From Pseudomonadota bacterium (GTDB lineage Bacteria; Bdellovibrionota_C; UBA2361; OMIW01): a stretch of DNA of 12,343 nucleotides. The translations under genes and the position numbers were made by a program. Positions 1 to 12,343 of the stretch are shown here, in pieces. The stretch's first letter is position 1. Every line of letters begins with the position of its first letter. The stretch is from assembly GCA_900299205.1 (NCBI GenBank), contig OMIW01000172.1, forward strand, positions 1 to 12,343, given 5' to 3'. Below the pieces are notes generated by a model. It did not search any database. It was not told the DNA's origin and saw only the letters and a list, made by a program, of their open reading frames with translations.

Positions 1-816
1 CGCCCTCTTGCGATGGGCCAGCAACTTGGGTGTTTTGCTCTGTCGGAGCCCGGAACGGGGAGCGATGCAGCCGCCCTGACGTGTCAGTATCGTCGCTCCG
101 GGGATTCTTTTATTGTATCGGGGACGAAGAATTGGATCACAAACGCTCCTGACGCAGGTTGTTGTGTTCTGCTTGCGACCGCTGATACGGCCGCGGGGTA
201 TAAAGGAGTCTCGGCATTTGTTCATGATATGACGCTCCCCGGTATAACGGTTGGTAAGCACGAGGAGAAGCTCGGTATCAGAGCGTCATCGACAGCGAGT
301 ATCCAGTATGATGATGTTGAACTAACGAGTGAAAACCTATTGGGAGGGGAGGGGAAGGGGTTTTCCATCGCGATGCACACCCTCAATGGAGGTCGGATTG
401 GAGTGGCATCGCAGGCCATCGGGATAGCGCGCGCAGCACTTGCCGATGCACTCGCCTATGGAAAGGAGAGGAGAACCTTCGGAAAGGCTATAGTCGAGCA
501 TCAATCCATCCAGAATTATCTCGCGGATATGATAACCCAGATCGATGCGGCACGTTACCTCACGCTCGGCGCGGCGCGTCGCAAAGATGCGGGACAGCCG
601 TATGCACGTGAAGCGGCTCAGGCGAAGCTTTTTGCATCTCAGGCTGCAATGCACTGTGCAGATAAGGGTATCCAGATTCATGGTGGTTATGGTTATGTGA
701 GAGATTATCCCGCGGAACGCCACCTCCGAGATGCTAAGATAACGGAGATATACGAGGGTACCTCTGAGATTCAACGAATGGTGATCGCTTCCCACCTGAT
801 AAAAGAGGGGATGTGA
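1..816 (+). CDS. Short-chain-type acyl-CoA dehydrogenase, 5' end missing
   Basis: FAD flavoenzyme that forms the alpha-beta double bond of an acyl-CoA and passes electrons to electron-transfer flavoprotein. The reading frame is open at the window edge (first codons R-P-L-A), so the N-terminal alpha-helical domain is missing and the ATG at 13 is probably internal. The first family signature is visible as LSEPGTGSD (near 40-66). The C-terminal domain carries [16 protein letters not shown] and then [10 protein letters not shown]. The Glu of YEGTSE (codon 754-756) is the usual catalytic base position in butyryl/short-chain enzymes. The visible 272 residues match the last 70 percent of a family member of about 380. 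The stop is one base from the next start, so it is co-transcribed with the mutase. The substrate is inferred to be butyryl-, isobutyryl- or methylbutyryl-CoA from this context. Confidence in the family is very high. Confidence 0.95.
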
Positions 817-817
817 G

Positions 818-2530
818 ATGGGAAAAAAAGGAGAAAAAGGGCCTACGAGCGAGGCTTCTCAATCGACCAACGGGCGCTCGGCAGACATCGCTGCATGGCG
901 CTCCAAGCGGCTCGTAAATGGTGGCGTAGGAATAGGTGAGCGAAAGCGAGCGTTTGAATCTATCAGCTTTCGTCCCCAGCCGACGGTCGTTTCGTGGGAG
1001 GACGGAAGCTCTCGGGAGCAACGAGAGACTATCGGCTATCCCGGAGAATACCCGTTTACGCGGGGGATTCACGCAACGATGTATCGTGGTCGTCTCTGGA
1101 CGATGCGCCAATTTGCTGGTTTTGGGACTCCCGAGGATACCAATCGACGGTTTCGCTATCTGCTTGAGCACGGTCAGACGGGGCTTTCGACAGCCTTCGA
1201 TATGCCATCGTTGATGGGGTACGACGCTGATCATAAACGGTCCCTCGGGGAGGTTGGTCGGGAGGGAGTTTCGGTGTCCTCGATCGAGGACATGGAGCGA
1301 CTTTTTGATGGTATAGATCTCGCTTCGGTCACCACCTCGATGACGATCAACTGCACCGCACCGATTGCATTCGCGATGTACGTAGCGGTCGCGCGGCGAC
1401 GGGGTATCCCATTCGAGCTGCTCGGCGGGACGATACAGAACGATATGTTCAAGGAATTTATCGCCCAGAAGGAGTGGATATCGCCACCCGAACCGTCAGT
1501 GCGACTTGCTTGTGATGTTATCCAGTTCTGTGCAGCTCATGTGCCCCGCTTCAATCCGATCAGCATAAGCGGTTATCACATTCGCGAAGCGGGTGCCACC
1601 GCCGTGCAGGAGTTGGCGTTTACCCTCGCTGATGGGCTTGGGTATGTTGAGGAGTGTTTGAGCCGTGGGATGGAAATAGACACATTCGCCCCTCGGATGT
1701 CATTTTTTTTCGACGTACACAACGATTTCTTCGAGGAGATTGCAAAATTCAGGGCGGCTCGGCGGATGTGGGCGCGATTTATGAAGGAGCGATACGGTGC
1801 GCGCGATCCCCGCTCGATGATGCTTCGCACTCACGCGCAGACGGCGGGAGTAAGTCTTACGGCGCAACAGCCCGTCAATAACGTCGCTCGGGTTGCCCTT
1901 CAGGCGCTTGCCGCTGTGCTTGGTGGCGTCCAGTCCCTCCACACCAACTCAATGGATGAAACGCTTTCATTGCCCACTGAGGAAGCGGTCAAGGTCGCTT
2001 TGCGGACACAGCAAATCATCGCTGAGGAGACGGGGGTCGTTAACACGGTCGATCCACTTGGTGGATCTTTTTACCTCGAGCAGCTCACCGACGATATCGA
2101 GCGTGAGGCGCTTGCGTACATCGCCAAGATCGATGAATTCGGGGGGATGCTTCGTGCCGTGCAGCTGGGTTATCCGCAGCACGAGATAGCGGAGGCGGCG
2201 TATCAGTTTCAACTCCGGTTGGAGCGACTCGATGAGGTACAGGTCGGGGTAAACAAATTTGTGGATGCCGAGGAGGAGTTATCAATCCCAACTCATCAGA
2301 TTGATCCTTCGATAGAGCGCGATCAAAAAGAGCGACTCGTGCGATTCAAGGCGGCGCGAAATGCTACTACTCACACCGCTGCGCTCGAACGGCTTGAGCA
2401 GGTGTGCCGTGATCGGGGTAATGTCATAGAGCCACTTGTTGATGCTGTCGATACGGGAGTTACCCTCGGAGAAGCGTCAGAGGTATTTCGATCAGTGTTC
2501 GGTGAGTATCGGGATCCAGGTTTGGTATAA
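818..2530 (+). CDS. icmA: Coenzyme-B12 acyl-CoA mutase large subunit, isobutyryl-CoA mutase type
   Basis: Catalytic TIM-barrel subunit of an adenosylcobalamin-dependent carbon-skeleton mutase, 570 residues, close to Streptomyces IcmA. It lacks the C-terminal B12 domain of fused methylmalonyl-CoA mutases; that domain is the next gene. The N-terminal region has [10 protein letters not shown] (74-83). The substrate-pocket stretch [11 protein letters not shown] puts Phe at 99, and [17 protein letters not shown] puts Gln at 217. Propionibacterium methylmalonyl-CoA mutase has Tyr89 and Arg207 at these places, and the constant offset of 10 supports the alignment. Phe/Gln is the pair known for isobutyryl-CoA mutase. 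The catalytic His of SGYH is present (254). The start ATG follows AAAGAGGGG at good spacing. Inferred role: isobutyryl-CoA/butyryl-CoA interconversion. Related activities such as 2-hydroxyisobutyryl-CoA mutase cannot be fully excluded. Many automatic annotations would call this methylmalonyl-CoA mutase. Confidence 0.93.
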
Positions 2531-2555
2531 GGGGATAATCGAGAAGGGGTGTGCA

Positions 2556-3008
2556 ATGACGGAAGATGATCCAGAGACTGGGCCAGAGCATAAAGGAGCG
2601 GAACCGCAGCGTGGCCCCATTCGGATTCTCATCGCCAAGCCGGGGCTCGATGGACATGATCGCGGGGCAAAAGTGGTCGCCCGGGCGCTTCGCGATGCCG
2701 GAATGGAGGTGATTTATACCGGTCTCCACCAAACACCCGAGATGATAGTGCGGAGCGCCATTCAGGAAGATGTCGATTGTATCGGGATGAGCATCTTGTC
2801 GGGAGCACACATGACCCTGTTCCCAGCGGTGTTGCAGCTTCTCAAAGAGGAGGGAGCAACCGATATTGTTGTGTTTGGCGGGGGGATTATTCCGAAAGGG
2901 GATATCGAAGCGTTGAAGGCCCAAGGGGTAGGGGAATTGTTTGGGCCTGGGGTCAAGATGGATGAGATCGTGGCTTGGGTGCGGGGGGTCGTTGGAGCGA
3001 GAGAGTAG
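2556..3008 (+). CDS. icmB: Acyl-CoA mutase small subunit, B12-binding domain protein
   Basis: Rossmann-like cobalamin-binding subunit of 150 residues that pairs with the preceding large subunit. The base-off/His-on motif D-x-H-x-x-G appears in [10 protein letters not shown], with His34 as the lower axial cobalt ligand. The second motif S-x-L is SIL at 79-81, and the glycine-rich GGG at 108-110 follows a beta strand, as expected for the nucleotide-tail pocket. About 20 N-terminal residues rich in Glu/Pro precede the domain and are probably disordered. The frame is open further upstream to 2436, but ATG 2556 is preferred because AAGGGG lies about 6 bases before it and the longer version would run 95 bases into the mutase gene. 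The gap to the large subunit is 25 bases. Length and separate encoding match IcmB-type subunits. Confidence 0.92.
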
Positions 3009-3057
3009 GAATCAGAGGCGACTGCGAAAAAGGGAACACCGGGCGTCGCGAAGTGAT

Positions 3058-3222
3058 AGGACCGGAGCGGTGAGTGCTGGACCCTGACTATGGGATCAGC
3101 CCGGATATGATAAGCACTAACCGAGTGCCACACCCGCGCCGTGGAGAACCTGCTTAACCCACTTCCCCAGGAGTCAGTGATCTGTAATTTGGGAGGCTCT
3201 GACATCAGTGCTCACGAAGGCC
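3058..3222 (+). ncRNA. Candidate structured RNA, 6S-RNA-like
   Basis: There is no protein gene here, but a consistent fold can be drawn by hand. A closing stem of 11 pairs joins 3070-3080 to 3205-3215, with three G-U pairs. Above it, TCAGCC pairs with GGCTCTGA across one bulge (near 3095-3100 and 3196-3202). A large open bubble then contains GGATATGATAAGCAC on the 5' side. The apical arm pairs GAGTG (3123-3127) with CACTT (3160-3164) and CCAC (3128-3131) with GTGG (3141-3144), leaving AGAACCTGCTTAACC as a one-sided bulge. E. coli 6S RNA, as recalled, has GAGCCGATATTTCATACCAC and GAGAAGCCTTAAAAC at matching places. Both ends are guesses. The fold is seen in the sequence; the 6S identity is inference. 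Confidence 0.4.
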
Positions 3223-3259
3223 ACTACCCTTGCGAGGCTACCAGAGTATGATTCAAAAG

Positions 3260-3289
3260 ATGGAGGACAGGCATGGGCCTGTCCTCTAT
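3260..3289 (-). terminator. Strong hairpin, probable terminator of the minus-strand membrane protein gene
   Basis: Arms 3260-3272 and 3277-3289 form 13 pairs (one G-U) around the tetraloop ATGG. Read on the minus strand, the stem is followed by CTTTTG, a short U-run, and lies 34 bases past the stop of the gene at 3324-3941. On the plus strand no T-run follows, so it would act as an intrinsic terminator mainly for the minus-strand gene. It may still help separate the converging transcripts. Confidence 0.55.
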
Positions 3290-3323
3290 GTAGCAGGGTA
3301 ACCTTTGAATGAACCGTATCGGC

Positions 3324-3941
3324 TTACCCGAGGATCAGCTGGTGGATGTCCCGCAGGATAATTCCGAACATCAAACCGAGCAGGAGCTGGTGAACGGAGC
3401 GAGCAACTGAGGCCGTCGTCCGCGTTTTCTGTTGGCGGAGATGGGCTCTCGCAGCGAGCCTAGCCACTAGCAAGGTCGTACATCCGAGCACCACACTACT
3501 AACGGCGCATTGAAGCACCAGTGATGGGGGCGTGGATTCAAAAACCAGACCCTTGACGAATCCCACGGGGAACGCATCAACTGCCCCCAGAAGTGCTGGA
3601 AGTGCCCATAGCCGAGGAGCCGTTACGACCCACGGTTCATCGTGCCCCTCACTGTCTCCGAAGCCTGAAGAGCACAGGATGAAGATGATGCATACCAGGA
3701 CCGCCAGTCGGAGCACTATCGCCACGAACCATCCTTCTGTGGTCGCAACCGTCGAAGCTGCGATTTTGACTGAAAAATGGAGGGCGGCTGCGATGGTTGC
3801 CCAAAGCAGACAAAACCTCCCACTCTTAAACAGAGAGGGATGGGCCATCGTATGAGCGACTCCGTCGACAGAGCCGAGGAGGCCCACCGCGATGGCCTTC
3901 GGAACCAATGTGAGCAGATAATCCATCAGATTAGTGCGCAA
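3324..3941 (-). CDS. Polytopic membrane protein with internal duplication, MntP/LysE-like layout
   Basis: I do not recognise a named family with certainty. The 205-residue protein has about five or six hydrophobic segments, near residues 8-25, 43-62, 72-91, 109-129, 141-161 and 183-200. Two halves look related: LLGSVDGVAH (21-30) and LLGAVDAFPVGFVKG (117-131) both place an acidic Asp in a hydrophobic stretch (D26 and D122, 96 apart), followed by a second hydrophobic helix. An Asp-Ala-Phe motif in two pseudo-symmetric halves is typical of the MntP manganese exporter group within the LysE-type transporters, so a small-solute or cation exporter is possible. The first codon used is TTG at 3941; ATG at 3926 would give 200 residues. 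Neither has a convincing ribosome binding site. It is transcribed divergently from the quinone oxidoreductase and converges on the mutase operon. Confidence 0.65.
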   Translation of the reverse strand: MRTNLMDYLLTLVPKAIAVGLLGSVDGVAHTMAHPSLFKSGRFCLLWATIAAALHFSVKIAASTVATTEGWFVAIVLRLAVLVCIIFILCSSGFGDSEGHDEPWVVTAPRLWALPALLGAVDAFPVGFVKGLVFESTPPSLVLQCAVSSVVLGCTTLLVARLAARAHLRQQKTRTTASVARSVHQLLLGLMFGIILRDIHQLILG

Positions 3942-4074
3942 TGTAGAACAGTTTACCCGACTCTCAGCTTAAAAGCCAATACTCCCCAGAAAATCGATAC
4001 CTTGCCGGCCCCCTCTATCCGGGTGATCATTTGGGGGACCTCCCTAATTCCGCATTTCCCAACTCGGAGCCCTC

Positions 4075-5103
4075 ATGCAAGCCCTGACCATTCACCCGGC
4101 GCCCGCGAACTCGCGGCTCCCGTACACCCTCCTTCCAACCATCATCCCTTCCCCCATACACCCTCTTCCCCCCACCCACGTCGCCATCGAGGTCGTCTGT
4201 GCTGGAGTCAACCGAGCGGATATCTTGCAGGCAAGGGGGCTCTATCCCCCGCCACCCGGAGAAAGCGAGCTTCTCGGGCTCGAGGTGTCGGGTATTGTTC
4301 GGGCGGTCGGCGCGGGGGTCACCCATCTTGTAGCCGGGCAACGGGTCGCGGCGCTCCTTTCGGGGGGTGGCTATGCGGAACTGGTGCACGCCCCAGCGTG
4401 CCAGGCGGTTCCGCTGCCACCGAGCTGGAGCTTTGTGATGGGGGCAGCTTTTCCCGAGGCGTTCGCGACCGCTTACATGGCGCTCGGCGTTGAAGGGGGG
4501 CTTCATGCTGGTGATACGGTGCTCGTGACGGGGGGGGCAAGTGGCGTCGGATGTGCCGCCATCCAGCTCGCAAAACTGGCAGGAGCGCGGGTGATCGCCT
4601 CGGCAGGAACGGTAGAAAAGGGAGAAGTATGTTCGAGGCTCGGGGCAGATTTTTTTCTCAACTACCGAGATGAAGATATCGCGGAGCGTGTCGCGGAGGT
4701 AACAAATGGTCGTGGAGTGGATCTTCTTCTCGACGTCGTCGGAGGAGAGCGATTCGCCGAGCATCTTTTGCTGCTTGCACGAGGGGGCCGATTGGTCTCA
4801 ATCGGTTTTTTGGGAGGAAAAAGAGGAGAGGTCGATCTCTCTCGGCTGATTCGAGAACGGCTGCGGATCGTTGGCACTAATTTGCGCAGCCGGACCGTTG
4901 AGGAAAAGGGTGCGCTTGTGCGGGGTGTGTGGACGATGATAGAGGAAAAGGTTCAGGAGGGAACGCTGATTCCTCAGGTCGATACGGTTTTTCCCATGGA
5001 GCGAGCAAATGAGGCGCACGAGCGGATGTTAGACAATAAAAATATCGGCAAGCTCATCATTCAGATTCGTCCTGAAGTGGGGGATGGCGAATATGGGTGT
5101 TGA
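4075..5103 (+). CDS. NAD(P)H:quinone oxidoreductase, PIG3 type (zinc-independent MDR)
   Basis: Medium-chain dehydrogenase/reductase of the zinc-free quinone oxidoreductase branch, 342 residues, slightly longer than the usual 325-330. GVNRADILQARGLYPPPPGE (44-63) is the hallmark N-terminal stretch of the PIG3/TP53I3 group. The Rossmann fold shows VTGGASGVG (151-159), the NADPH-binding loop, followed by QLAKLAGARVIASAGT. VDLLLDVVGG and GRLVSIGFLGG are the next expected core strands, and the C-terminus ends GKLIIQI. No Cys/His zinc ligands of alcohol dehydrogenases are present. The expected reaction is NADPH-dependent reduction of quinones or reactive carbonyls in the cytoplasm. CGGAG sits a few bases before the ATG. 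The first 35 residues are unusually proline-rich and the coding strand there is pyrimidine-rich. The gene overlaps the next by about 20 bases, suggesting translational coupling. Confidence 0.9.
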   Translation: MQALTIHPAPANSRLPYTLLPTIIPSPIHPLPPTHVAIEVVCAGVNRADILQARGLYPPPPGESELLGLEVSGIVRAVGAGVTHLVAGQRVAALLSGGGYAELVHAPACQAVPLPPSWSFVMGAAFPEAFATAYMALGVEGGLHAGDTVLVTGGASGVGCAAIQLAKLAGARVIASAGTVEKGEVCSRLGADFFLNYRDEDIAERVAEVTNGRGVDLLLDVVGGERFAEHLLLLARGGRLVSIGFLGGKRGEVDLSRLIRERLRIVGTNLRSRTVEEKGALVRGVWTMIEEKVQEGTLIPQVDTVFPMERANEAHERMLDNKNIGKLIIQIRPEVGDGEYGC

Positions 5104-6382
5104 GGGGCTAGCGGTAGAGGTTGGTGTTGATATGGGGGATGATGGGCCAATAGTGGTTACGTCAGACCGTCCGGTGTGCATAGTTGGTGCGGGAGTTTCG
5201 GGGCTGGCATGCGCGCTTCGTCTTCATCGGGCAGGAGTTCCTGTTCGCGTTTTCGAGGCAGAGAATCGGGTCGGAGGACGGGTTGGCTCGGAGTTTGTCG
5301 AGGGGTTCCGCTTCGATCATGGATTCCAGGTTCTCCTTGATTCTTACGAGGAGCTGGCTGGGGTGCTTGATGTGCCAGCACTCAATCTTCGCAGCTTTGA
5401 GCCGGGGTGTGTTGTGAAGTGGCGTGGGGATTTTTATCCTCTCTTCGATCCAGTGAGGCGACCTTCAGCGGTGCCCCGCATGATGGCTAAGATGATCGGC
5501 TCATGGCGTGATTGGATGAAGATAGTGGGTTTTCGCGCGCGATGGGTTAACCGACAAACGGTTCGCTTCTCGGAATCTCCTGGGTTGTCAGTTCGTGAAT
5601 TTCTTGAGAGGGAAAGATTGAGTTCCGAGATAATTGATCGATTCTTCCGACCATTCTTCGGAGGGGTGTTTCTCGAGCACGAGCTCTCAACGGCTGCTTG
5701 TTTCTTCCCGTTTATCTTCTCCCGATTTTCGGCCGGCTCTGCAGCGATTCCTGAGAGGGGGATGCAAGCTGTTCCTGATCAGCTTGCAGCAGGACTCCCC
5801 GCCGATGTGATTTCCTTGGGGCGGAGAATCGCGAAAGTCGGCGTTGACCATCTTGTCGATGACCATGGTGAGCGCGTTGAGGCTGCCATATTAGTCGATG
5901 CACGGTCTCTGTCGGCGGACACTCAGACCTTGGCTCATGGGGCAGCAGTTCACTTTATTGAAGTTCCAGCGCCACTTCCCGAGCGTCGTACCCTCTATCT
6001 TGGTGCCGATGACGGTTCGACGATTAACGTCATCGCACCTCTCTCGGATGTGCAGCCGTCTTATGCTCCCGCCGGACGGCACCTTGTTGCTGTGACCTGC
6101 TATACCTGTGGCTCCCGATCCATTGAAGAGATCGGTGAAGTAGCGAGGCGAGAGCTCGCCACTTGGTTCGGCTTTCAATTGGAAATGGTACGACTCCTCG
6201 GCTTTCGTTCAATCGCTCGTGCACTGCCCCGTTTTGTCTCCCCATCCAACCGTGTTTCTCAGCGAGATGGCGAGCGATATCGAATCGGTGATGTGACTGA
6301 ATATCCTTCGCTGAACGGGGCGCTTCGGAGCGCCCGAATAGTCGCAGAATCAATATCTAGGCGGGTCTGTGATGGCCGATAA
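5084..6382 (+). CDS. FAD-dependent oxidoreductase, amine-oxidase/phytoene-desaturase fold
   Basis: Flavoprotein of 432 residues. An N-terminal dinucleotide-binding fold is plain: VCIVGAGVSGLACAL (31-45) gives GxGxxG, with Glu58 at the end of the second strand for the FAD ribose. NRVGGRVGS (61-69) is the GG motif that follows in amine oxidases, protoporphyrinogen oxidases and carotenoid desaturases. GFQVLLDSYEE follows the DHG motif, a pattern seen in a poorly characterised bacterial branch of these enzymes. The C-terminus YPSLNGALRSARIVAESI resembles the FAD-contacting helix that closes the fold. The substrate is unknown; no carotenoid or haem genes are nearby. The start is uncertain: ATG 5084 has GGGGG directly against it, ATG 5093 is better spaced, and ATG 5132 would avoid the overlap. 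Co-transcription with the quinone oxidoreductase is likely. Confidence 0.85.
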   Translation: MANMGVEGLAVEVGVDMGDDGPIVVTSDRPVCIVGAGVSGLACALRLHRAGVPVRVFEAENRVGGRVGSEFVEGFRFDHGFQVLLDSYEELAGVLDVPALNLRSFEPGCVVKWRGDFYPLFDPVRRPSAVPRMMAKMIGSWRDWMKIVGFRARWVNRQTVRFSESPGLSVREFLERERLSSEIIDRFFRPFFGGVFLEHELSTAACFFPFIFSRFSAGSAAIPERGMQAVPDQLAAGLPADVISLGRRIAKVGVDHLVDDHGERVEAAILVDARSLSADTQTLAHGAAVHFIEVPAPLPERRTLYLGADDGSTINVIAPLSDVQPSYAPAGRHLVAVTCYTCGSRSIEEIGEVARRELATWFGFQLEMVRLLGFRSIARALPRFVSPSNRVSQRDGERYRIGDVTEYPSLNGALRSARIVAESISRRVCDGR

Positions 6383-6434
6383 TAGAACTGCAGAAAAGGT
6401 CGCAGCTCACCGTTAGAGGCGGAAAACGAGGACG

Positions 6435-7085
6435 CTAAGAAGGGTTCTGGTCGTTACGAGGCTTGTTCTCACCAGGGTTCCACAAGAACTCCTCTCCACC
6501 AACTTTAGCGAGCTGGAATCGAGCCAGCGCGAATAAATAATCGCTGAGCCGATTCAGGTAGTGGAGAATTCCCTCCGGCATGGTCTCCTCATGGACTAGC
6601 GCAACTACCGAGCGCTCAGCGCGACGACAAACGGTTCTTGCAATATGAAGGTAGCTATTAGCTAACGATCCACCCGGAAGGACAAACGAACGCAATTCCG
6701 GTACCTTTGCTGAGAGAAGGTCAATCCAATGTTCAATGTGGGTGACGTCATCGGTGAGATCCGTCCGCTTCGTCGGCCAGGTTATATGGGCTGAAGAGGC
6801 AAGAACGGCCCCGATGTCGAACAGGATATTTTGGATGGTTGCGAGTTGTTCGAGCGTGGAGGCATCCTCGACATTCGAAGTGCTATGGCCGTCGTCATCG
6901 GTGGGAGTTTCCCTTCTCGGAGGAGTCAGGAGCACTGTTCGGACAAGCCCTATCCAAGAATTAAGTTCATCGACATCGCCGTAAGCCTGAACTTTGAGGG
7001 AATCCTTGCTGACCCGAGAGCCACCGACCAACCCTGTTGTCCCGTCGTCTCCGGTTCGGGTATAAATCTTATTTATTTTTACCAT
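6435..7085 (-). CDS. mmaB: ATP:cob(I)alamin adenosyltransferase, PduO type
   Basis: Transfers the adenosyl group of ATP to cob(I)alamin to make adenosylcobalamin, the cofactor needed by the mutase encoded at 818-3008. The protein has 216 residues, a usual length. The N-terminal ATP loop KIYTRTGDDGTTGLVGG (6-22) is diagnostic, followed by YGDVDELNSWIG (35-46). The central helix FVLPGGS and LHIARTVCRRAERSVV (146-161) carries the conserved Arg and Glu residues. LNRLSDYLFALAR (177-189) is the last conserved helix. A Thr/Asp/Ser-rich stretch (about 57-76) looks like a disordered loop insertion. Start ATG is supported by GGAG nine bases upstream. It lies 64 bases after the small acidic membrane protein gene and converges with the FAD oxidoreductase. 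I see no clear terminator in the 52-base gap at 6383-6434. Confidence 0.94.
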   Translation of the reverse strand: MVKINKIYTRTGDDGTTGLVGGSRVSKDSLKVQAYGDVDELNSWIGLVRTVLLTPPRRETPTDDDGHSTSNVEDASTLEQLATIQNILFDIGAVLASSAHITWPTKRTDLTDDVTHIEHWIDLLSAKVPELRSFVLPGGSLANSYLHIARTVCRRAERSVVALVHEETMPEGILHYLNRLSDYLFALARFQLAKVGGEEFLWNPGENKPRNDQNPS

Positions 7086-8063: not shown

Positions 8064-9068
8064 TTGATTGAGCGCGGTGAAGTATTGAGGGGCAGAAGCA
8101 TGCAGCCGGGGATGGAAGTGAATCAGGAGAGATTGAGTCGTGCTACCGAGCGCATGCCGGCTGCTATCACTGACACCGGGTGCGAGAGGGAGTTGAATGA
8201 AGATCGATATGCGGTCATAGAGTGTCGTAGTGGGGTTGCGTGGGTGGTGGCCGATGGCCTAGGGGGGGTGTCCGGGGGAGAGTTGGCTGCGCAGCTAGCG
8301 ATCGATGCTATGCGTCGTTTTCTCGAGAGCCAACCGATTGGTGACGTTGATTTTGCTCTCCGTTCTGCGGTGATGGAGGCAAACAGAATTATAGTGCTAA
8401 GGAGGCAAAATCCTCTCTTTGCGGGGATGGGAACCACGGTTGTGGGAGTTATGTTTCGCGGGAGCGAGATGTCCTTAACTCATGCGGGTGATTCGAGGGC
8501 CTATCTGGTGAGGGACGGAGATATTCAAGCTCTCACAAAGGATCACACGCTGGTCCAGGAGATGGTCGCTCGGGGCGAAATATCAGTTGAGGAGGCATTG
8601 AGGCATCCCCAAGCTCATGTTCTGACGAGGTGCTTGGGTGCGGAGCCTGGACTGAAGCTTGATGTGTCAAAATTTTGGATTCATTCGCAGGAGGAGGAGA
8701 GCTCAAAAGATTCCATAGTCCTAGCCTCTGATGGCTTATATAGCCTTGTGTCCGATGCCGAGCTTGCAACTATCGTGACTGACCTCGAACCTCAGCGAGC
8801 GTGTGTGCACCTGGTTGAATTGGCAAAGTCTCGGGGTGGATATGACAACATCACCGTGGTGGTGATCCCGGTTAATGGAATCATCAGTGAACATCCGCCC
8901 GAGGGCCATTCGGCGCTTAGAGCGAGCGAGATGGCGGTCGACAATGAGCCAGACGGTGCACTGTCGGGTATTTCTCGGGTAGATTGGTTGGTTCTCTGGG
9001 GGACGGTTTCCTCGGTGGCGTCAGCAACCGCGGTGTTCGCGCTCTTCACTTACCTTTTTTTGGTTTGA
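8064..9068 (+). CDS. PP2C-family Ser/Thr protein phosphatase, C-terminal membrane anchor
   Basis: Metal-dependent phosphatase of the bacterial Stp1/PppA type, 334 residues from the TTG start. The family motifs occur in order: ITDTGCERELNEDRYAV (35-51), VVADGLGGVSGGE (61-73) with the metal-binding Asp64-Gly65, GMGTTVVG (121-128), LTHAGDSRAYLV (138-149), LTKDHTLVQEMV (157-168), LASDGLYSLVSD (220-231) with Asp223, and GGYDNITVVV (258-267) with Asp261. All metal ligands expected for an active enzyme are present. After a linker, VDWLVLWGTV...LFTYLFLV (307-334) forms one C-terminal helix, so the enzyme is tail-anchored with its catalytic domain in the cytoplasm. TTG 8064 has AGGAAGG seven bases upstream; ATG 8100 with GAGGGG is an equally good start. 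The gene heads a phosphatase-FHA-kinase operon and would reverse phosphorylation by the kinase two genes on. Confidence 0.93.
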   Translation: MIERGEVLRGRSMQPGMEVNQERLSRATERMPAAITDTGCERELNEDRYAVIECRSGVAWVVADGLGGVSGGELAAQLAIDAMRRFLESQPIGDVDFALRSAVMEANRIIVLRRQNPLFAGMGTTVVGVMFRGSEMSLTHAGDSRAYLVRDGDIQALTKDHTLVQEMVARGEISVEEALRHPQAHVLTRCLGAEPGLKLDVSKFWIHSQEEESSKDSIVLASDGLYSLVSDAELATIVTDLEPQRACVHLVELAKSRGGYDNITVVVIPVNGIISEHPPEGHSALRASEMAVDNEPDGALSGISRVDWLVLWGTVSSVASATAVFALFTYLFLV

Positions 9069-9098: not shown

Positions 9099-9866
9099 AT
9101 GACAAATGAGAAGGCTTCAGGGAGTAATGAGGGAGGATTTCTGGACTCAGAGGGTGCTCCGAGAGCAAGGAACCGTACAGTGATGCTAAGTCCGGAGATG
9201 ACGGGTGCGGTTAGAGCGAGAATTACCTCTGGATTGGCATATGCCAGGCAAGGGGGAGGTAACTTTCAAGGCGCTCAGACACCCGCATCAACAAATCAGG
9301 GGGACCGAAGGCCAGGCGGACTTGAGAACCCGAGTGTGTTTAGTCTCCCTGAAAGTGAGTCGGTCCCTGGGAGGGAGGAGCCTTTGCCAGCTTCGAACTT
9401 TTCGGTGGTGGCTCCGACCGTCAGGGAGGATTTTGGTCCAGCAGTGCCCCCATCCGCAAGTGATGTTAAGCCAACATCCGCAGCGGGAGATTTCATTCGA
9501 TATCAGCGGCTCTCGACGATAGTTGGTTTTCTCGTTTCCTACGACAGAGACCAGAATGGTGAGGTGTTTGAGCTGAGAAGTGGGCGACTAGTTATTACCT
9601 CTGACCGCTCGACGAGTGGGAACGTGCTATTCATTGATGACGAGACGGTATCTCCATCTCACGCGGTTATTCGGGTATCACCCGATGGTGACATTCAGGT
9701 ATTGGATCAACTGTCCGAGTTTGGAACGCGGGTTCAGCAACTCGGGGGTGATAAGACCGTTGAACTTTCCGGAGTTAAGGCTTCTTTAGGTCATGGCGAC
9801 ACGCTGCTGCTGGGTAAGCGCCGATTCCATGTCGCGCTGGTTGTGAGAGGAGGCTCGGAAACATAA
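9099..9866 (+). CDS. FHA-domain protein with N-terminal threonine motif
   Basis: The 255-residue cytoplasmic protein has a C-terminal forkhead-associated domain (about 138-248), the phosphothreonine-binding fold. The frame FELRSGRLVITSDRS...NVLFIDDETVSPSHAVIRV...LDQLSEFGTRV...GHGDTLLLGKRRFHV follows the FHA strand order. It is atypical: the usual S-R-x-H is SPSH (185-188), so the Arg is Pro, and the usual T/S-x-N-G-T is SEFGT (206-210), lacking Asn. Arg170 and Ser185 remain. The first 130 residues are low-complexity and probably disordered, apart from RARNRTVML (22-30), where Thr27 looks like a kinase target. AGAGG precedes the ATG at good spacing. Position between phosphatase and kinase suggests it is the substrate and reader of the pathway, as GarA/OdhI or Fha1 are elsewhere. 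Its downstream partner is not visible. Confidence 0.88.
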   Translation: MTNEKASGSNEGGFLDSEGAPRARNRTVMLSPEMTGAVRARITSGLAYARQGGGNFQGAQTPASTNQGDRRPGGLENPSVFSLPESESVPGREEPLPASNFSVVAPTVREDFGPAVPPSASDVKPTSAAGDFIRYQRLSTIVGFLVSYDRDQNGEVFELRSGRLVITSDRSTSGNVLFIDDETVSPSHAVIRVSPDGDIQVLDQLSEFGTRVQQLGGDKTVELSGVKASLGHGDTLLLGKRRFHVALVVRGGSET

Positions 9867-9872
9867 TTAGTT

Positions 9873-11513
9873 TTGTCGGTGATTTCCGACGAACAGGGGG
9901 CCGTGGTGGCAAGTGATTACAGGGGTACATTAAGTCTTCAGCCAGGGGCCGTAATCGCTTCACGGTATGAGGTGGTGAAGTGCCTTGGTACTGGGAGCAT
10001 GGGGATGGTGTACGCCTGTCGCAAGCGAGGGGCTCCTGGATCGGCGATGGTGGCTGTGAAGGTATTGTTCCCGGAGCTTTCTCAGGATAATAAAAATCAG
10101 GCTGCCCGCTTTCGTAACGAGATATTTGCGGCTTATGGGGTTAATCATCCGAACGTGGTGAAGGCGTGGGAGTACATCAGAGACGGAGATCTAATCGCAT
10201 ATTCAATGGAGTTTGTCAGCGGAGGGGACCTTGCGACTAAATTAGGTCGAGCTGATGCCCCCATGGATATCCCGAGTATCGTGAAGTTGTTGAGCCAGAT
10301 GTGCGCTGGAGTACAGGCAATTCATGACGCGGGCATTGTCCACAGAGACTTAAAACCGGAGAACATACTCCTGACGAAAGAGGGGGATGTAAAAATTGCT
10401 GATTTTGGTATCGCCCGTCTCGAGTTAGCATCTTCTCGAAAACTTACTGAACATGGGGGGGTTGTCGGAACCATCGACTATGTGGCCCCTGAGTATCTTC
10501 TTAGCTCCCAGATAGATGCGCGAGCCGACATTTACGCAGTAGGAATTCTCGGGTACGAGATGATCACGGGAGAGTCGCCATTCCGCGGAGAGACTATCTA
10601 CGACACGATGTGGAAACGTATAAAGTCGGACCCTCCGCCCCCTAGTCATGTGCGGTCTGAATGCCCGATAAAGCTCGATGAAATAATCCTCCGAGCAATG
10701 GCGAGAGCCCCAGAGGATCGGTTCCAGACGGCGCGCGATATGCTTGAGCAACTTCGTCTTTTATCGATCGAGTCTGGGTCGCGTCCATCTGAAGGGGGGT
10801 CTTCTCCGACGATTGAAGCAATTGCTCCCCGAAGAACGAGGAATGATACGATAAGATTAAAGGGAACTGGAGGTTCCTTTCCCAACCCTCACGGTCAGGT
10901 TGATCACAAGGAGACGTGTAATCTTTCGGGACGTTCTCCGAGCGAATCAAGAGACCCTCTCTCCTCATGGGAGACGGGAATGCGGCTCATGAGGACCCGG
11001 TCAGAGAGGGATAAGGGTGAGGAAATAAAAGTTCTCTGGCCTCATGAGAGCATATCGTCGGAAGAAGAAAGGGAAAAAGGTCTCCGGATTGCCCCTGATT
11101 CGGGCTCCTCGCCCATTTCTCGAGATCTGTCTGACATGGGGAGCTGGTCAATGAGTGAATCAGGTTGGGGAAGGGGAAAGGCCGCCCCTAGGAATGAGAA
11201 GGATCCGCCGGTATACAGTCCCTTGGAAACCTATCGACAGAGGTCGCGTCGCGACGACGTCGAGAAAGTATCGTTCGGAGACTCTTTAGATGGTGGGGGA
11301 CGGAACCAAAGAGGCGGACCCCCCCCGATTGCGTTCAGTCGCGACGACTTGACATTGCTTCTAATTACGACGCTTTTTGTCGTAGGGCTGGGTCTTATGC
11401 TTCAGTTCCTGGGCGTTTTCCAGGGAGAGCGCCCGTTAGTTCGTCGGCAGGTGCTTGGGTTCTATGACATCAGATTAGATTTGGAGGTCGCTCAAGAAGA
11501 GGCATTGATTTAA
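9873..11513 (+). CDS. Eukaryotic-like Ser/Thr protein kinase, tail-anchored
   Basis: Hanks-type kinase, 546 residues if TTG 9873 is the start. Kinase domain about 31-298: glycine loop LGTGSMGMVYA (38-48), Lys63 in VAVKV, Glu83 in the C-helix, catalytic HRDLKPENIL (157-166), DFG at 177-179, and GTIDYVAPEYL (199-209). All catalytic residues are present. A Ser/Pro-rich, charged linker (about 300-490) contains RTRNDTIRL (321-329) with Thr326. One membrane helix LTLLLITTLF...GVF (493-516) is followed by a 30-residue outside tail. There are no PASTA or other sensor domains. TTG 9873 has no ribosome binding site; GTG 9906, five bases after AGGGGG, is a good alternative that leaves the kinase domain intact. 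It follows the FHA gene by 6 bases, or 39 with the later start. The likely partners are the FHA protein as substrate and the PP2C as antagonist. Confidence 0.95.
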   Translation: MSVISDEQGAVVASDYRGTLSLQPGAVIASRYEVVKCLGTGSMGMVYACRKRGAPGSAMVAVKVLFPELSQDNKNQAARFRNEIFAAYGVNHPNVVKAWEYIRDGDLIAYSMEFVSGGDLATKLGRADAPMDIPSIVKLLSQMCAGVQAIHDAGIVHRDLKPENILLTKEGDVKIADFGIARLELASSRKLTEHGGVVGTIDYVAPEYLLSSQIDARADIYAVGILGYEMITGESPFRGETIYDTMWKRIKSDPPPPSHVRSECPIKLDEIILRAMARAPEDRFQTARDMLEQLRLLSIESGSRPSEGGSSPTIEAIAPRRTRNDTIRLKGTGGSFPNPHGQVDHKETCNLSGRSPSESRDPLSSWETGMRLMRTRSERDKGEEIKVLWPHESISSEEEREKGLRIAPDSGSSPISRDLSDMGSWSMSESGWGRGKAAPRNEKDPPVYSPLETYRQRSRRDDVEKVSFGDSLDGGGRNQRGGPPPIAFSRDDLTLLLITTLFVVGLGLMLQFLGVFQGERPLVRRQVLGFYDIRLDLEVAQEEALI

Positions 11514-11605: not shown

Positions 11606-11701
11606 ATGAAAGAATTCGGGTTAATTTTTACGCTCGAACAAGTGACAAATCAGAGAAGAAGGGCCTCGAACTATGAAGTTAATGATAATAGAGAATTCTA
11701 G
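11606..11701 (+). CDS. Possible 31-residue leader ORF overlapping the CpaE-like gene
   Basis: ATG 11606 is preceded by GGAGG at ideal distance, a better ribosome site than that of the following gene. The frame runs 31 codons to TAG, overlapping the CpaE-like gene (start 11673) by 29 bases in another frame. The product begins MKEFGLIFTLEQ, then becomes basic (NQRRRAS) and ends NDNREF. It has no signal peptide or membrane helix and no recognised family. If translated, it may couple or regulate translation of the next gene through the SD-containing palindrome. It may equally be a chance frame. Confidence 0.3.
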   Translation: MKEFGLIFTLEQVTNQRRRASNYEVNDNREF

Positions 11702-12343
11702 CGAGAATCAGATAAAATGTGCCCTTCGGATTGAAGCTCTTAGCGAGCGAGACAAAGAATTGCTTGATCTTCAGATCAAGGTCGTAACTGAAAAGGAGTA
11801 TGAGGATCGGCTTGATCAAGCGGATGTATTGATCCTTGGGTCAGGTTTGGGGGACTCGGCGTTATCTGTTGCTAGGAAGGCGAGAGCAAAATTTCCGTGG
11901 CTTAACATAATCATGTATGTGACCGACAAGGCATACGCAGAGGGAGCCTTTCGTACGGTGCATACTGAGGGGGTCCGAAAGGCCATGCCGGATGGTGCCA
12001 GTCCGAATGACTTGCTCCAAGAGCTGATTGCGATACAGGCGGAGTTTAAAAGAGAGGGGCGGGCACGAGATGGGCAGGTAATCGTCGTCTGTCACGCAAA
12101 AGGGGGAGTGGGTGCGACATCGTTTGTTGCAGCGCTCGCGGAGGTTTTTGCAGCGTGCAATCGTCGTACCATGATATGGGATCTTGATACAGTATCGCGC
12201 GATCTAAGTCGATCTCTGGCCGCCGTGGGGGATGAGAGTCGCTTGGTGGATGGATGGATTAATGGATCTTTAGATGTATCAAGAGAATCACTTCGCGATG
12301 CTCTCGTTCCGATAACGGACGAGGTTTTTCTACTCACCCCGCC
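11673..12343 (+). CDS. cpaE: CpaE-like pilus-assembly ATPase, 3' end missing
   Basis: The frame is open to the window edge and gives 223 visible residues. The N-terminal part (1-125) has the alternating strand/helix pattern of a receiver-like domain (LMIIENSS, ADVLILGSG, NIIMYVTDK) but lacks an obvious phospho-acceptor Asp in the first strand end, as in CpaE/TadZ. The ATPase part begins VIVVCHAKGGVGATSFVAAL (137-154, V to L). KGGVGATS is the deviant Walker A motif of the CpaE branch of MinD/ParA ATPases: the signature Lys143 is present, and the second Lys is replaced by Ala. WDLD (169-172) is the next expected strand with its Asp pair. CpaE-type proteins localise Tad/Flp pilus machinery to the pole. 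AAGGG lies nine bases before the ATG. The gap to the kinase gene is 159 bases without a clear terminator. Downstream pilus genes would be expected outside the window. Confidence 0.88.
   Translation, partial: MKLMIIENSSENQIKCALRIEALSERDKELLDLQIKVVTEKEYEDRLDQADVLILGSGLGDSALSVARKARAKFPWLNIIMYVTDKAYAEGAFRTVHTEGVRKAMPDGASPNDLLQELIAIQAEFKREGRARDGQVIVVCHAKGGVGATSFVAALAEVFAACNRRTMIWDLDTVSRDLSRSLAAVGDESRLVDGWINGSLDVSRESLRDALVPITDEVFLLTP

Follow-up and report, generated by a model that had tools for sequence, protein, structure and literature searches.

In the actinobacterial proteins OdhI and GarA, which are kinase substrates, a phosphorylated threonine in the N-terminus is read by the FHA domain (PMC8546545). 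DgcB from Bdellovibrio bacteriovorus carries a phosphorylated Thr14 with a valine at position +3, to which its own FHA domain binds, and the kinase that acts on this tail is unidentified (PMC6733907). Threonine phosphorylation also operates in type VI secretion (T6SS), through PpkA and Fha (PMC3953482). In Chlamydia, the Ser/Thr kinase PknD phosphorylates CdsD, an FHA protein of the type III secretion system (T3SS) (PMC2765968). Finally, the Tad-like Kil machine of Myxococcus is rich in FHA proteins and works together with a needleless T3SS* (PMC8460266, PMC12075869). These FHA proteins are named in the Kil literature; the signalling cascade that fires such FHA-rich, Tad-like killing machines of predatory bacteria is unknown (PMC8460266), and the words kinase and phosphatase are absent from the main text of the two Kil papers (PMC8460266, PMC12075869).

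In dozens of genomes, the locus described here combines the genes of a kinase, a phosphatase and an FHA protein with a conserved candidate phosphosite, beside Tad/T3SS-like genes. Each kind of component is already known. Their association with Tad/T3SS-like genes, and a class-wide site common to two FHA families, were not found in a limited literature search.

Gene content and neighbourhood of the locus

The window, that is, the whole stretch of 12,343 nucleotides that was analysed, contains four adjacent genes of interest, all on the + strand, as are the features within them. The first (8064..9068) encodes a PP2C-type Ser/Thr phosphatase of the Stp1/PrpC kind, with a C-terminal hydrophobic anchor at residues 316-334 in the hydropathy profile. 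Its PP2C domain is above the Pfam cut-off (1.6e-14), and the NCBIfam Stp1 model is matched at 6.5e-64; the curated Stp1/IreP score is 215.6, below the threshold of 230. The second gene (9099..9866) encodes the FHA protein, which is small, has no predicted membrane segment and consists of a disordered N-terminus and a C-terminal FHA domain (Pfam FHA 1.2e-4, above the cut-off). It is followed by a membrane-anchored Ser/Thr kinase (9873..11513; Pfam Pkinase 2.6e-50), modelled with AlphaFold2 (AF2). The catalytic domain (9966..10739; residues 32-289 in Pfam) contains HRDLKPEN, DFG and the activation loop TEHGGVVGT, and the catalytic Lys, HRD and DFG are invariant, as in Hanks-type Ser/Thr kinases. 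A transmembrane helix is predicted at residues 495-513 (11355..11411; hydropathy 2.37), with an AF2 helix at 490-516. The match to the PknB/PASTA kinase family (NF033483) is limited to the catalytic part (residues 25-299) and scores 264 against a cut-off of 450. The true start of the kinase is probably the GTG at 9906 rather than the TTG at 9873, because orthologues begin with M-A-D-E-H..LQPG; with this start, the residue called Thr326 below may be Thr315. The fourth gene (11673..12341) runs off the window. It is assigned to a TadZ/CpaE-like ATPase from adjacent orthologues, the Pfam matches (AAA_31/CbiA) being below the curated cut-off, and is the gene with which the Tad run of relatives begins.

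The order PP2C–FHA–kinase–TadZ is always the same. Where the contig leaves room, the FHA and kinase genes are adjacent in 38/38 loci, the PP2C gene is upstream of the FHA gene in 36/36 and TadZ is present in 34/34, while CpaF is found in 24 of 28 and a SctV/FlhA-type gene in 19 of 21. CpaB–CpaF–TadB–TadC–SctV/FlhA-type genes usually come next on contigs that extend far enough. Relatives contain a Tad/Flp assembly locus (TadZ, CpaB, CpaF, TadB and TadC); the window contig has the TadZ-like gene only, and in the same genome further Tad genes lie off this contig and SctV is located on another one, beside SctJ. All named relatives are uncultured and mostly metagenome-assembled, and are labelled Deltaproteobacteria, Bdellovibrionales, Oligoflexia, Dadabacteria or bacterium.

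Some further genes were noticed in these surroundings. In one genome (G002, L083) the PP2C-FHA-kinase-Tad run lies beside the flagellar genes FliL, FliM, FliP and FliR. Three loci (L146:1531-4029, L145:869-3331 and L148:1541-4045) encode a protein of about 830 amino acids that adjoins SctV-type and FHA genes; its degenerate kinase-like similarity suggests that it is possibly a pseudokinase. In the window itself, an ORF of 205 amino acids on the - strand (3324-3941) contains several hydrophobic segments and matches neither Pfam nor NCBIfam. The upstream ORFs (13-7085) resemble, by eye, an acyl-CoA dehydrogenase, methylmalonyl-CoA mutase subunits and a cobalamin adenosyltransferase-like protein.

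The FHA domain and the N-terminal Thr27 site

The FHA domain (9492..9845, from the alignment and AF2) adopts an FHA fold at residues 132-249 with a pLDDT of about 95. Its beta-sandwich aligns with solved FHA domains at Z 13-15 (VIA-align), and Foldseek agrees. The phosphothreonine-pocket positions R163, S185, H188 and S206 are present; among 31 FHA orthologues, S185 is near-invariant and the other three are invariant. The canonical Asn of the N-G-T turn is absent, its place being taken by F208 in the window and by a variable residue across orthologues. OdhI and GarA are the only sequence relatives of the domain in the PDB. Close structural matches (Foldseek, VIA-align) are Chlamydia CT664/CdsD, MDC1, OdhI, GarA and DgcB, with the CT664 FHA domain as the top Foldseek match of the protein. 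The FHA domains of DgcB, MDC1 and OdhI, all good matches, each bind the phosphorylated N-terminus of the protein that contains them.

The N-terminus is of low confidence in AF2 and has neither strand nor helix except for a helix at residues 32-50, in a model that represents the unphosphorylated form. Within this disordered part, RARNRTVML with Thr27 is present where the first-pass annotation had placed it (residues 22-30, 9162-9188; Thr27 codon 9177-9179). It opens a conserved island (residues 22-41, RARNRTVMLSPEMTGAVRAR, 9162..9221) that reads class-wide RARN[RK]TVMLTPE[IM]TGxVRA, 20 residues within an otherwise unalignable and unconserved N-terminus. R22, A23, N25, T27 and R39 are invariant in the 31 orthologues, a count that would be circular if taken alone since its rows were chosen by a pattern containing T; the orthologues missed by this pattern either start at a contig end or keep the threonine (RVRNKTVML in L102, TKTVML in L105). 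Thr27 is found in 39/39 rows, and in every FHA orthologue with a complete N-terminus. Position +3 from Thr27 is hydrophobic (L, M, V or F) in all 39 rows. On the evidence of the alignments, Thr27 is a candidate phosphosite with strong conservation, and the gene that encodes it always lies beside those for a Ser/Thr kinase and a PP2C phosphatase.

A related site exists in a second FHA family, the zinc-ribbon FHA proteins. In 21 of 25 of these, R-x-[RK]-[QNKR]-x-T is found 18-29 residues past the N-terminal ribbon, against 0.06 expected from shuffles; the member in the window's genome carries RVRQPTTSL. The hydrophobic +3 residue is not kept in the zinc-ribbon FHA proteins, and the motif common to both families throughout the class is R-x-R-[NQ]-[RK]-T. 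Motif sharing across the class is a property of two FHA proteins rather than of an FHA protein and a kinase. Since the two families are paralogous, the common motif was probably inherited and kept, and is not a case of convergence. The zinc-ribbon FHA gene is located between the gene of a tandem-FHA protein (25/25) and SctJ (23/25), in a T3SS-like cluster that also has SctQ and SctR-type genes. Because the Thr27 motif is class-wide, recurs in a second FHA protein and is encoded beside kinase, phosphatase and pilus/secretion genes, it has the appearance of a genuine control site.

Two other FHA proteins deserve mention. A tandem-FHA protein (L184:1370-2680, G000:C24), encoded directly before the zinc-ribbon FHA gene, has the canonical phosphothreonine pocket R..SSRH..STNGT, and its sequence makes it a good candidate for a reader in trans. 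A regular expression for the canonical tandem-FHA pocket matched none, being so narrow that the window genome's own R..SSRH..STNGT was not caught. A third FHA protein (L107:7047-7796, G007) is encoded beside another kinase and has an N-terminal RARKATITL.

The conserved block extends beyond a minimal phosphosite into the AF2 helix that directly follows the motif, and it may therefore bind a partner directly. It could be imagined that the block is a constitutive docking element, made up of a short linear motif and a helix, for a Tad or kinase partner, and not mainly a phosphosite. Conservation over about 20 residues, including R39 (38/39 rows), would be in accordance with such a role, as would the helix. 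However, the core of what the block has in common with the zinc-ribbon FHA family is R-x-R-[NQ]-[RK]-T, a sequence shaped like the target of a basophilic kinase, and FHA protein, kinase and phosphatase always go together, so that docking as the main function appears doubtful. A second candidate site in the island is Thr35 (codon 9201-9203), in E-[IM]-T-G-x-V-R-A. The family HMM aligns this stretch with ETTSVFRADLL of OdhI, and the alignment to the GarA 17-mer has a p of about 0.02. Thr35, and not Thr27, might then be the main regulatory site, similar in form to the ETTSVFRA motif of GarA/OdhI, but we regard this as improbable. The HMM stretch alone is not significant, and Thr35 is kept in 33 of the 39 rows and lost in 6, whereas Thr27 never is; it is also absent from the zinc-ribbon FHA proteins. 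The N-terminal ETTS phosphomotif itself is absent from the window FHA protein, with a weak resemblance at E-M-T-G. Thr27 is retained here as the preferred site.

The copy of the motif in the kinase tail

As the first-pass annotation stated, the kinase contains RTRNDTIRL, with Thr326, directly past its catalytic domain (residues 321-329, 10833..10859); the tail, Thr326 included, is of low confidence in AF2 and leads to the transmembrane helix. The annotation had counted six identical positions out of nine and had proposed one recognised site for both proteins. The actual number is five (R, R, N, T and L), plus a V/I pair. Of 150 trials in which both disordered segments were shuffled, 135 gave a best 9-mer match of at least 5 between them. 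With RARNRTVML itself as the target, 289 of 20,000 kinase-tail shuffles (about 1.4%) contained a match of this size or better, and the exact motif in the window tail has a p of about 0.005 against shuffles. The pure resemblance is weak, and conservation therefore has to decide.

Conservation gives a different answer for the two halves. While the FHA motif is class-wide, RTRNDTIRL occurs in 0 of 40 other orthologous kinases, all from outside the window's family, and as a conserved feature it was rejected, being private to the window's genome. In a search of this genome by itself, a strict DNA pattern matched the FHA and kinase sites and no others; a class-wide run adds two places there, neither of them in the locus or in an identified FHA or kinase gene. 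In 45 genomes of the class, the pattern has 132 matches versus 91 in the control. Thirty of the 132 are the FHA site, the other 102 are near background, and among orthologous kinases the window's alone is matched. One site common to kinase and FHA protein is consequently not supported as a conserved feature. The phosphosite idea stands for the FHA protein, with its strongly conserved Thr27 beside the PP2C and kinase genes. It falls for the kinase, since the annotation had itself made the idea dependent on conservation. Residues of the kinase's basic-substrate pocket (GGDL, HRDLKPEN) were also rejected as evidence, because they are common to other STPKs and do not discriminate; among three others examined in the window's genome, HRD[LI]KPEN is found in 3/3 and GGDL in 1/3.

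Two explanations can be given for the kinase copy. The first, to which we attach about an even chance, is coincidence, in which a basic Ser/Thr-rich tail happens to resemble the FHA motif. A five-residue identity is the usual best match between both shuffled segments, the DNA pattern is near background outside the FHA sites and no kinase orthologue keeps the sequence. It is less easily reconciled with the low frequency of five-residue matches to the conserved RARNRTVML itself, or with R-x-R-x-x-T, which is over-represented in kinase tails: it occurs in 11 of 41, from five families, versus 1.5 +/- 1.2 in shuffles, an excess that is inflated by related sequences, as 6 of the 11 tails are related by descent within a single genus-level group (f11). 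The second explanation, which is modelled on PknG and seems rather unlikely, is that the kinase phosphorylates itself on Thr326 and the FHA protein is recruited to this anchor. In PknG, a divergent disordered segment with autophosphosites binds the FHA substrate, GarA/OdhI (PMC8546545), and a disordered tail is present here in the AF2 model. Recruitment sites of this type turn over, so their sequence need not be conserved, and both the R-x-R-x-x-T excess and the p value of the exact motif would fit. On the other hand, no other kinase carries the exact motif, the contribution of group f11 to the excess is large, the match in the window was picked out post hoc and a T-centred profile is only weakly enriched in the tails (6/41 at p<0.05). 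An extended 15-residue profile of the FHA motif has no excess in them (0/41). For the kinase copy, coincidence is therefore given the higher weight.

Other kinase tails, for example those of L065, L071 and L077, have a YVGPxL past the catalytic domain and a T-[EQ]-V-L-xxxx-V-D-Y-A, which are conserved in parts of the class and are absent or unrecognisable in the window kinase.

A possible phosphothreonine switch and its known counterparts

Our preferred reading, which we consider slightly better than an even bet, is that a Tad-pilus and type III-like machine is under the control of a kinase/PP2C/FHA switch on Thr27. In the disordered FHA N-terminus, the target of the membrane-anchored kinase would be Thr27, within the basic site R-x-R-N-[RK]-T-V-x-L, and the neighbouring membrane-anchored PP2C is the likely eraser of this phosphate. 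Phosphorylated Thr27, with its hydrophobic +3 residue, would then be bound by the protein's own FHA domain, either as a lock in cis or as a dimer in trans; alternatively, the tandem-FHA protein encoded in the T3SS-like cluster may be the reader, through one of its FHA domains. Binding would change the partner held by the FHA protein at the base of the Tad machine, TadZ and CpaF being the neighbours. The zinc-ribbon FHA protein beside SctJ, with its R-x-R-Q-[RK]-T site, could be a second substrate. The kinase's own Thr326 copy would not be needed in this switch. Gene order, conservation, the motif common to both FHA families, the FHA fold and most pocket residues are observations; phosphorylation, the pairing of kinase and substrate, FHA binding and the effect on the machine are predictions. 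Several points weigh against this reading: the canonical Asn is missing, the conserved block is longer than a minimal phosphosite, Thr35 is an alternative or second site, the zinc-ribbon FHA proteins have no conserved hydrophobic +3 residue and are paralogues of the first family, and in the window's genome SctV and the Tad genes other than TadZ are not on this contig.

More tentatively, one kinase/phosphatase pair might act through R-x-R-[NQ]-[RK]-T in two FHA adaptors and so coordinate the Tad-pilus and T3SS-like halves of a single envelope machine throughout the class. Assembly would then be switched by phosphothreonine in a system other than T6SS, and the pair could supply the signalling step that is missing from contact killing of the Kil/T3SS* type. 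With its peptide and its two enzymes defined, the locus lends itself to direct testing in vitro.

OdhI and GarA, with PknG and PknB, are similar in having a disordered N-terminus with a conserved threonine and a single C-terminal FHA domain, and their being kinase substrates would have its parallel in the predicted phosphorylation of the FHA protein. Their motif is ETTS, whereas here it is R-x-R-N-x-T-V-x-L, the linker is longer and the canonical Asn is absent; furthermore, they act on 2-oxoglutarate dehydrogenase, while this FHA protein is encoded with Tad/T3SS-like genes. DgcB shares the conserved threonine with a hydrophobic +3 residue in an N-terminal tail. In contrast, it has a GGDEF domain and an unidentified kinase, where the present protein has no output domain and a candidate kinase and phosphatase adjoin it. 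As in the PpkA-PppA-Fha pathway of T6SS, a kinase, a PP2C and an FHA protein are encoded with a secretion machine, but that machine is Tad plus T3SS-like here, and the substrate site and FHA layout differ. T6SS genes were not seen in the neighbourhood of the locus, where the neighbours are Tad and SctV/FlhA-type genes. CdsD, the FHA partner of PknD in Chlamydia, is a structural T3SS component, unlike the small FHA protein of this locus with no predicted membrane segment. KilF has its FHA domain at the N-terminus; in the single CpaF that was scanned (L065), Pfam shows none. The Kil and T3SS* pair resembles the present system in its combination of a Tad-like machine that has FHA proteins with a T3SS-like complex.
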